Assembly: GCF_014066305.1 (NCBI RefSeq)
Contig: NW_023501039.1
Location: 1,302,001 to 1,366,000 of the forward strand
Length of the DNA: 64,000 nt
Origin: Letharia columbiana
Lineage: Eukaryota > Ascomycota > Lecanoromycetes > Lecanorales > Parmeliaceae
Reading direction: 5' to 3'
Both the position numbers and the translations under genes were made by a program. The notes under the pieces were generated by a model that had not been told where the DNA came from, ran no database searches, and saw nothing but the letters and a program-made list of their open reading frames with translations. Positions 25,645 through 29,902 of the stretch are shown here, piece after piece. Every line of letters starts with the position of its first letter. The stretch's first letter is position 1.

Positions 25645-28495
25645 ATGGCTTCTTTAGCAATGGCGCAACCCGGTGGTGCCGGCTGGACAACCACCATCGA
25701 CTTTGTCCACCAACAGCAATACAACACCAAATCTTTGCATGGCATCAAACGTTCTCATAACGAAATGCGTGCAATTTCACCTAACAACCACAACGGTGCA
25801 TTTCAGGATATCATCCCTGCTCAAGAAGTCTTCAAGCGCCAACGGCTGCATGCAGGTGGCAAGAACCGCATTGAAGCTAGCAGGATATGCAGTGTTACTA
25901 GCGGCCCAGACATTTTGAACAACGAACAACCCTCAAGGCAGATATCGGCATCCACCCCAGGACCATCACAGAGTCCGCTGCTTCTGTTGTCTCATCCACG
26001 CTACTGTCTCCCAGAAAGATTGGTCAGCAATTTTGCTTCGTTGGGAATCAATAGCATCTACCCGTGGCAATCGTCCTGTCTTTTGGGACGTGGACTGTTA
26101 AATGGCGAGAAGAACCTGGTTTACACCGCTCCAACCGGTGGCGGAAAGTCTCTTGTGGCTGATGTGCTCATGTTGAAAAGAGTAATTGAAGATCCCACCA
26201 AGAAAGCCATCTTGGTGCTTCCGTATGTGGCTTTGGTGCAGGAGAAGCTCAAATGGCTCAGGAAGATTGTCGACGGTGTGGAAAAAAAGAGTGTCAGCTT
26301 CGGAAGCCAGACCAGCACGCAGCTTCCTGCATGGCGCAGACCCCACAATAGCTCAGTGCGCGTCGTGGGTTTTTTTGGAGGAAGCAAAGCACGAGCTTCA
26401 TGGTCCGACGTCGATGTGGCCGTTTGCACTATCGAAAAGGCAAATGCGCTCGTCAATACGGCCATTGAAGAGTGCACTATCAATGATCTAGGAGTTGTTG
26501 TTTTGGATGAGCTTCACATGATTAACGATGATCATCGAGGCTATCTAATGGAGCTAGTAGCCAGCAAGCTCCTGAGCTTGGAGCGGTCAGTGCAGATAGT
26601 GGGAATGAGTGCGACTTTAACGAATGTAGAAGTTTTGGCAAATTGGCTAGACGCGAAGTATTACAGCACGAAGTATGTACCTGTCCCTATTGAGGAATAC
26701 TTGGTCTACGACCGCTCTATCTACCCTGTCTCAACTTCCAATGCGTTTTTGAAGACTGCCAGCCAACTCAATTCGACTCAGCCTTTTCCGGTTGTCTCTC
26801 CTTCACGAATGATTCAAATATCTGAGCATAACGAGCTCAAGAACCCGTTAACTAACGCTGTCGTTTCTTTGGCCGTTGAGACTGCAAAGGCTGGCTATGG
26901 TGCCTTGATCTTTTGCAGTGGCCGCCAGGGATGTCAGTCGACTGCTTCCTTGGTCAGTGAAGCGATGCCTATCCTTTCCGATGTGGACGAGAAGATGCTG
27001 GATCGAAGGAAAGACGTAATCAGTGAACTTCGAAGCCTACCAGTAGGTCTCGACGATACGTTGGACAAGACTGTGATGAAAGGAGTCGCTTTCCATCATG
27101 CCGGCCTCACTGTCGAGGAGCGAGACATAGTTGCCGAAGCCTACGATAAGGGCGTCATCAGCGTCATCGTAGCCACATGCAGCCTTGCGGCAGGCATCAA
27201 TCTGCCAGCGAGAAGAGTCATACTCCAAGGAGCCAGGATGGGCCGGGACCTCATCGGGCCAGCCATGCTCAGGCAAATGAGAGGTCGAGCTGGTCGCAAA
27301 GGCAAAGATGAGATTGGCGAAAGCTATCTCTGTTGCCAGAAGGCTGATCTTGAAGAGGTAGCGCAGCTACTCGAGGCCGACCTTCCCATGGTGGAGAGTA
27401 GTCTGACGCCCGAAAAGCGTGGCATTAAGAGGGCCCTCTTGGAAGTCATAACAGTTCGGCTCGCCACGCATACTGGCGCCATCCAGGAGTATGTTCCGAA
27501 GACTTTGCTCTATCACACCATGGATCGAGTATTGTTAGACACCATGGTGTCGAAAACACTAGAAGAGCTCATAGAAGATGGACTTGTTACTATGGACAAT
27601 TTCGGTAGCTACGAAGCTACTCTCCTGAGTCAAGCTACAGTCGCTTCGTGCCTGACTCCCGAAGATGGCATCTTTTTACATGGCGAGCTTCGTCGGGCTC
27701 TCCGAGCCTTCGTTATGGATGGAGAAATGCACATTTTCTACACCTTCACACCACTTTACAGCTCCCAGACAGACATCAACTGGCCCATCTTCCGTCGAGA
27801 AATGGAAAACCTGGATGAGAGCGGCGTTCGAGTTCTCGAATTTGTAGGCGTCAATCCAGGCCTGGTCAACCGAATGTAAAGCATCCCCAGCCTTGCTCCC
27901 ACAACCCCTTTTTAACATACCACCAAACAGGGCAAACAGCGCGAAATCCCTCCCCGAAACCACGCCCTCAGAAATCCACGCCGCCCGAATCTACCGCCGC
28001 TTCTACGCCGCCCTTCAGCTCCGCGACCTCTGCAACGAAACACCCATCCACCTCGTCGCTCGCAAATTCGAAGTTCCCCGCGGGTTTGTGCAGACTCTCG
28101 CCCAAATCTGCGAAGGTTTCGCAGCGGGCATGATCAAATTCTGCGACAGAATGGGCTGGGGAATGCTCAAAGCCGCTCTCGAGCACATGATCGACCGCCT
28201 GAAAGCCGGGGCGAAAGCTGATTTGTTAGACTTGGCGAAGATTCCGTTCGTGAAGAGTAGGACCGCGAGGGTATTTTGGGAGAATGGGTACAAGGGTCTG
28301 AGGACCATGGCGGAGGCTGAGGCGAAGGATTTGGTGCCGATATTGCTGCTGGCGCAGCCGAAGAAGTCGCGGTTGGATGCAGGTGAGGAGGCCAAGTATC
28401 ATCAGAAGTTGCTGTTGAAAGCGGAGATTATCGTTGGAGCTGCGAATAGACTGTGGGAGAGACAGCAGCAAGTTGAGCTCGAAGCGGACATTTGA
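25645..28495 (+). CDS. HELQ/Hel308-type superfamily 2 DNA helicase (helicase half of Pol theta type)
   Basis: Two exons (25645-27875, 27931-28495) encode 931 residues. The family unwinds forked DNA in a 3'-5' direction and acts in replication-fork repair and crosslink tolerance. Seen: a disordered N-terminus (1-110); a Q-motif-like region YPWQSSCL; Walker A TAPTGGGKS (161-169); motif II DELH (288-291); motif III GMSATLTN (about 320-327); motif V near VATCSLAAGINLPARRV; and motif VI QMRGRAGRKG. Exon 2 carries the helical C-terminal region ending in a KAEIIVGAANRLWERQ stretch. No DNA-polymerase domain follows, so this is HELQ-like rather than full Pol theta. I took the ATG at 25645; upstream codons in the frame look like an untranslated leader. 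Met6 (25660) is an alternative start. The intron (55 nt) is phase 2 and restores RMANSAKS. Confidence 0.9.
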
Positions 28496-28614: not shown

Positions 28615-29902
28615 TTACAAGATCACACACTTGAAAGGCAAACCACAGGGACCACTTTCCTTTTTCTCGGCAACAGGTTCCGCAGCAGGCGCACCTTCGC
28701 TCTTGTTGACATGATCCGGATCGTTTGTTCCGACAGTCGTTGCCTTTGTCCCATCGCTAGCACCATTACCAGCACCAGTAGTTCCGCTTGTTGCTGTCGT
28801 TCCTACCGCAGCTACGGGTTCCTGTTGGTTGGACGAAGGAGCAGCCGCGGTATTGGCGACGACCCCGCCGGACGGATCATCTAGTCATGCGAAGTTGACC
28901 TTCGACACAGCCTTGTAGAAGGACTCGCCCTCTACGCAGATATCGAAGTCAGCATTGTTTCATCGGTGCAGAATTTTCAAGTTGCAAGACAGGTCTCGGG
29001 AGCAGATGTGTCTTCTGGCTCCCGAAACATGTCTTGCGACTCGACTTAAGTAGCAAATAGGGAGGATCAGCTCCGAAATGTACGTACGTGTCTTGGCTAG
29101 GCTAAGTTCCTGCTCGGTAGGCATGCGCGAGCCGTCAGCACCCTAAGAAAGCACATTAGTCAAGGCATCCCTTGTGCGTTTGCCAAGAGGCGTTAGCTGG
29201 ACATGAATGGAAACTCACGGCAAAAGTCCCTGCACCCCACGGAGTACCACCCCTCACCTCCTCCAAATTCGCCAACGTCGCAAACGCCGTGGCGTAACCC
29301 AACGGTACATAGATCATGCCATGGTGCGTGAAAGTGCTCATAGCCGCCAACGCCGTGCTCTCCTGTCCTCCTCCCTGAGAGGCGGTACTGATGAAGACAC
29401 CAACATATTTCCCGTAGTATCCGCCAGTCTGCCACTGCTTGCCAGTCTGGTCCCAGAAGGCTTTCCACTGGGTAGGGAAGTTGCCATAACGGGTGGGAAT
29501 GCCAAGGAGGAAGGCGTCATATTTTTCAAGCTCGTCGGGGGTGATGAAGGGGATGGAGCTGGATTGGCCGGGTGCGTGCATCTTGGAGAGGACCTCTTCG
29601 GGGAGGGTCTCCTTGACTCTAGAAGAGGAAAAGCAGGTCAATTTCGCTCTCTTGCGCACCGAGAGGGAGTCAAGTGTTCTCTGGCCCAAGTCGTTGTGCT
29701 TGGAATTGGAGTGGGGACGCACTGGTAGACATCGGCCTTGCCTCCGGCGGCTTCAATGCCTGATTTTTCTGCTTCGGCGATCTTTCCGATATGGCCGTAC
29801 ATGGAATACTGTATCAATTGAATCAGTAGATAAGGAAGGTGATGGATAGTGGTAGTGGGGGGTTGGAGGACGAACGTAAACAATGGCGATACGCGGAGCC
29901 AT
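28615..29902 (-). CDS. Pst2/Ycp4-family flavodoxin-fold NAD(P)H:quinone reductase with a possible readthrough CaaX tail
   Basis: Five exons read 29902-29876, 29808-29723, 29618-29219, 29142-29088 and 28931-28885 (TGA), giving 204 residues, the usual length of WrbA-like fungal proteins (Pst2, Alt a 7 type). These bind FMN and reduce quinones by two electrons, limiting oxidative stress. Seen: the flavodoxin start IAIVYYSMYGH split by intron 1; [43 protein letters not shown]; and a C-terminal [14 protein letters not shown] block. The terminator is TGA followed by CTAG. The frame then remains open for 89 codons to TAA at 28615-28617. The extension is an Ala/Thr/Gly/Ser-rich linker ending in [13 protein letters not shown], whose last four residues form a CaaX box with Leu (geranylgeranyl type). 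With readthrough the product would be 294 residues. Intron 4 is long (156 nt) and contains a hairpin. Confidence 0.9.
28881..28887 (-). promoter_or_regulatory. TGACTAG stop-codon readthrough context
   Basis: The stop of the Pst2/Ycp4-type gene is TGA followed directly by CTAG. UGA CUA(G) is the established leaky-termination context in fungi (peroxisomal isoforms of glycolytic enzymes) and animals. Here the downstream frame is open for 89 codons and ends in a prenylation box. The CTAG could also serve as a splice acceptor that bypasses the stop in frame (intron 28881-29087). Confidence 0.7.
28981..29040 (-). other. Hairpin inside intron 4 of the Pst2/Ycp4-type gene
   Basis: Arms 28981-29003 and 29018-29040 are imperfect inverted repeats (20 of 23 positions pair as Watson-Crick, plus one G-U wobble in the transcript), separated by a 14-nt loop. 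The hairpin occupies the middle of the 156-nt intron. It could bring the donor and acceptor closer together, or it may be a small palindromic insertion. Confidence 0.75.

Follow-up and report, generated by a model that had tools for sequence, protein, structure and literature searches.

In fungi, metabolic enzymes can carry cryptic peroxisomal targeting signals that are exposed by stop codon readthrough or by alternative splicing, as reported for PGK, GAPDH and Tpi1, with UGA CUA as the leaky stop context (PMC4207609 and PMC4973966). For PGK and GAPDH the two routes are reported to form a mosaic between species (PMC4973966), and in Ustilago UGA CUA is described as sufficient for readthrough (PMC4207609). 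In animals, the readthrough extension of Drosophila Syx17 is reported with a predicted farnesyltransferase signal (PMC3840789), and human readthrough extensions have been screened for prenylation sites (PMC4359377). Yeast Pst2 and Ycp4 belong to one protein family, of which Candida albicans Ycp4 has about 90 extra aa that end in a CAAX box; in that yeast the family is described as protecting membranes from peroxidation, with all four GFP-fused proteins located at the plasma membrane (PMC4556627).

The gene described here belongs to the same family and lies in a 64,000-nucleotide window of the Letharia columbiana genome, that is, the whole stretch of DNA analysed, to which all positions refer. 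It is read from the minus strand in five exons and encodes a 204-aa protein with the C-terminus SKVNFA followed by TGA. Exon 1, with the start codon, lies at 29876–29902, and is followed by exon 2 (29723–29808), exon 3 (29219–29618), exon 4 (29088–29142) and exon 5 (28885–28931, TGA included); the resulting protein runs unbroken against its relatives. The donors of the four introns are GTTCGT, GTGCGT, GTGAGT and GTACGT. Each of the four introns has a CTNAY branch-point match 14–23 nt ahead of its acceptor; for CGTAG, the acceptor of exon 5, the distance is 18 nt. The positions given in a preliminary description of this DNA were all correct, and the strand, which it left unstated, is added here.

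The 204-aa protein scored 210.9 bits against NCBIfam NF002999 (cut-off 141) and 204.8 bits against TIGR01755 (cut-off 132.5), matched the Pfam domains PF03358 and PF00258, and aligned with yeast Pst2 (5mp4, E 7.6e-74) as far as residue 200. These family profiles and the Pst2 match bear out the earlier naming of a Pst2/Ycp4-type flavodoxin gene; judged by its sequence, the product is a WrbA/Pst2-type NAD(P)H:quinone reductase of the Pst2/Ycp4 family. A search of the genome (52.2 Mb in 161 contigs, an assembly that is possibly incomplete) matched this gene only, through two of its exons. On the plus strand, convergent with the gene, lies a long helicase-like ORF (25645–27879) followed by another ORF that ends at 28495 and does not overlap the tail described below.

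The enzyme closes in TGACTAG (28881–28887, minus strand), a stop in a context reported for readthrough (PMC4207609), and the same heptamer contains an acceptor that is apparently used by the Letharia lupina gene model. The frame then stays open for 89 codons (28618–28884) until a TAA at 28615–28617. This extension is an Ala/Thr/Gly-rich linker with a conserved end (28618–28653), in which a Cys (CGLPFKC) stands six residues ahead of the Cys of the CaaX box. The box itself, CVIL, is a prenylation-type C-terminus with an aliphatic a2. The enzyme length and its stop, the open frame, the linker composition and both cysteines agree with the preliminary description. A count over both strands of the 52.2-Mb genome, at any position and not just at stops, gave 2429 TGACTAG heptamers, compared with 3805 copies of the reversed pattern. 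A possible 12-bp RNA stem (28804–28852, minus strand) starts about 33 nt past the TGA. When folded against shuffles, a segment of 97 nt gave a z of −2.34 (5 of 200 shuffles equal or better) and one of 64 nt a z of 0.09, and the stem is suggestive only as a possible stimulator of readthrough.

The openness of the tail is in itself weak evidence, because 140 of 5000 dinucleotide shuffles (2.8%) also stayed open and an open stretch of 87 codons exists in one antisense frame. Stops across the tail number 0, 4 and 3 in the sense frames and 1, 1 and 4 in the antisense frames. The plus-strand reading of the tail interval, which supplies those 87 codons, was rejected as a candidate since it lacks a CaaX tail. 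Open-frame statistics by themselves were therefore dropped as proof of the tail. Third-position GC was lower in the tail (0.45) than in the core (0.67), which was counted against readthrough. It is the conservation of the CaaX end in relatives that places the tail far beyond chance.

Relatives were compared as 233 distinct listed proteins, comprising the best 120 of 5034 from a first search and the best 120 of 3831 from a second, which used a tail-bearing profile and biased the lists towards tails. A Cys at −4 was found in 76 of the 233, a proportion that does not represent a frequency because of that profile; the tailed L. lupina protein (P0001) was already among the best 120 of 5034 in the first search. 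Conservation of the CaaX end in orthologues had been set beforehand as a test, and 75 of the 76 listed relatives with Cys at −4 keep a CGLP-type end, the lone exception being P0068 from Lasallia. Among these 75 listed proteins, Cys at −10 is present in 74, a1 varies (V, T, D, N, A, S, E, I or L), a2 is I in 49, V in 22, M in 3 and L in 1, and X is L in 34, Q in 23, M in 12 and another residue in 6. An aliphatic a2 combined with a variable a1 is the pattern that prenyltransferases would enforce on CaaX boxes. The 75 proteins fall into six classes of Pezizomycotina (Lecanoromycetes, Leotiomycetes, Pezizomycetes, Dothideomycetes, Eurotiomycetes and Sordariomycetes), where class membership was looked up for one species per class and the other proteins are presumably placed correctly. 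On these comparisons of protein sequence, the tail is a real and old peptide. The short forms also end at the same point, with 46 of the 110 listed proteins of 190–210 aa ending in VNFA and 67 in Ala.

A search with the last 43 residues of the tail returned 2 candidates, of which the single match was Letharia, and the tail-end DNA pattern had 0 matches in the genome-contig collection. Its 1 match among viral contigs (L004) was taken as chance, the frame there being broken by several stops and lacking a CaaX end. The pattern GPCGLP occurs at 4 places in the L. columbiana genome, and the remaining three are not at a CaaX end.

At the place of TGA-CTA, 8 of the 233 listed relatives have Trp-Leu, within W-L-D-G-S in six of the eight. 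Seven come from metagenomes (P0132, P0139, P0141, P0143, P0155, P0179 and P0193) and one from GenBank (P0185, Sarcosagium campestre). P0132 and P0155 also have Trp past the CaaX end (CTIL-W-K and CAVL-W-...), in place of the final stop, which indicates that TGA was rendered as Trp in both; a gene-calling artefact has thus exposed the codon, and on this protein evidence TGA at the site is certain in these two. It is likely in the other five metagenome proteins, while P0185, under the standard code, is presumed to have TGG. The Leu codon after the site would be CTN or TTR, of which CTN is compatible with the leaky context. The TGA CTA context, whose conservation the preliminary description had proposed to check, is visible in relatives through their proteins, with the TGA certain in those two.

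Among metagenome proteins that reach the end of the tail, Trp-Leu is present in 7 of 8, P0169 being the other; the set is a selected one, because a caller without splicing reaches the tail only if nothing stops the frame. The core reads without introns in P0155, whose longest contig is 1349 bp, and in P0179 (927 bp); their contigs are probably spliced mRNA that retains this site. The best named matches are Halenospora (Leotiomycetes) for P0132 and P0155, Tricharina (Pezizomycetes) for P0179, and Flavoplaca, a lichen fungus that we take to belong to Lecanoromycetes, for P0141.

Against readthrough stands the finding that 69 of the 75 listed CGLP-ended proteins lack Trp at this position, namely 68 GenBank entries and P0169; the 68 GenBank long forms presumably contain a predicted intron across the stop. 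The long form could be made by splicing out a minor intron that includes the TGA, which would link core and tail in frame; the last intron might, for instance, use CTAG as a second acceptor. We regard such splicing as unlikely in this gene. With the CTAG acceptor, the intron here would span 207 nt (29087 to 28881), begin with the good donor GTACGT and preserve the frame. The L. lupina protein P0001 reads AKT-H-D-W-SGGVV, consistent with a join at the CTAG acceptor, and P0194 from Wetmoreana (AQ-DGS) may be a join of the same kind. A splice scan of the window covered GT-AG pairs of 40–400 nt that skip the TGA with the tail in frame, donors inside intron 4 included, and returned 53 in-frame pairs (29 from exon donors alone) with 14 distinct acceptors. 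None of these 14 acceptors has CTNAY 6–45 nt upstream, compared with 3297 of 8521 AGs (39%) in the window, whereas all four real introns of the gene have it in range. For the CTAG acceptor the closest CTNAY is 69 nt upstream, beyond the normal acceptor. The absence of branch points in range makes splicing less likely, although a weak branch point could still work.

The protein models bear on the same question. The CTAG form would drop the last helix (14 residues), which lies mostly inside the fold, the Pst2 match extending to residue 200; in 71 of the 75 listed long forms this helix is kept, at least in its QGxxFY beginning. Compared with the 92%-identical P0132, in which they are in frame, the Halenospora model P0173 is short of 13 residues, VNFAWLAEGSAKE. 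An intron of 39 nt is implausibly short, yet P0173 would need one if its DNA matches P0132 in length, and the model looks like the work of a stop-avoiding gene finder.

Among the 25 listed CGLP-ended proteins assigned to Sordariomycetes, on known taxonomy or best match, a join after AK/AR-x-x at a G-starting codon is seen in 14; the other 11, mostly from Fusarium and kin, have no such join. Short forms that end in GA* (x-G-A), AFGA being one case, could, as read from the proteins, hide a GTGCGT donor over the stop. P0169, a Sordariomycete-like long form that is stop-free and lacks Trp, comes from an intronless contig of 1058 bp, so that lineage probably has an mRNA free of the stop. We infer that true alternative splicing is likely in part of the Sordariomycetes. 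In P0169, P0060, P0144, P0190 and P0232, from part of this class, the short-form stop may overlap a splice donor (GTGCGTGA), and if it does, splicing versus retention would select the form made in those fungi.

For the Letharia gene itself, readthrough is the probable origin of the long form and is preferred over splicing. The tail could alternatively be a decaying relic of an ancestral, always-long Ycp4-like protein, untranslated in this lineage, and the extension of C. albicans Ycp4, about 90 aa with a CAAX box (PMC4556627), suggests that the tail may be ancestral. This reading is nevertheless very improbable: the 89 codons contain no second stop, the conserved end is intact and the prenylation rules are conserved across classes. 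P0001 differs from this gene by 2 residues in the core (1–189) and by 1 in the last 85 residues, a pair too close for this comparison to carry strength. A sequencing or assembly error that replaced a sense codon by TGA can be practically dismissed since, despite Trp at the site in P0185, the relatives P0003 and P0004 (88–91% identity) end at the same residue and the L. lupina model likewise avoids a stop.

With readthrough, this WrbA/Pst2-type NAD(P)H:quinone reductase would be made in two forms from one gene. Ribosomes would mostly terminate at the TGA and release the 204-aa soluble enzyme, and a minority would decode UGA in the CUA-G context as an amino acid, adding about 90 residues with a flexible linker and the CaaX end. 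CVIL would then be prenylated, the terminal Leu suggesting geranylgeranyl, and the upstream Cys would perhaps be palmitoylated. The tailed enzyme would be attached to membranes and reduce membrane quinones, for example ubiquinone. WrbA-type enzymes are oligomers, so that a small number of tailed subunits could take untailed ones with them. The supply of both forms by one gene, suggested in the preliminary description, gains from the conserved tail and CaaX end and from Trp-Leu in the eight listed relatives, while splicing remains a rival route to it. A point against a tail-based reading is that untailed C. albicans Pst GFP fusions were also reported at the plasma membrane (PMC4556627); the tail may not be essential for this location, or the untailed proteins may be riding on tailed partners.

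On a broader reading, for which we consider the case evenly balanced, one quinone reductase gene would yield a soluble and a prenylated form across Pezizomycotina, with the prenylated form arising from readthrough at UGA-CUA in Lecanoromycetes, Leotiomycetes and others but from a stop-swallowing intron in Sordariomycetes, and with yeasts keeping separate genes. Membrane antioxidant capacity could then be set directly by decoding at the stop, because oxygen, through ribosome hydroxylation, is reported as a possible influence on termination at UGA when C follows (PMC4207609). In the public models P0001 (L. lupina HO133_004455) and P0173 (Halenospora varia), the in-frame TGA is probably dodged by artificial introns, and other public models of the family end at the TGA. 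If the broader reading is true, some fungi have truncated public models of this family and others mis-spliced ones.

The parallel with cryptic peroxisomal signals of fungi, drawn in the preliminary description, holds in that the Letharia gene shares with those cases the UGA CUA (G) context, a metabolic enzyme and a hidden C-terminal targeting signal (PMC4207609), as well as, apparently, a choice between readthrough and splicing that differs from species to species (PMC4973966). It differs from them in its signal, which is not a PTS1 for peroxisomes but a membrane-directed prenylation box, placed at the end of a long tail. In the open-access literature we found no title on readthrough of this gene or on prenylation by readthrough in fungi, so the statement that no such case had been described stands for fungi as far as these titles go; it does not extend to animals, where a prenylation signal was predicted once, in Drosophila Syx17 (PMC3840789). 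That extension resembles the present one in carrying a prenylation signal, and differs in being a lone animal prediction on a different protein. With PTS1 readthrough known in fungi and prenylation predicted once, a readthrough-added prenylation signal would be a new form of a known phenomenon, and, if true, would widen cryptic readthrough targeting from peroxisomes to lipid-anchored membrane proteins. Unlike Candida, in which separate genes encode the tailed and untailed proteins, a single gene would here yield both and do the job of the separate yeast genes.
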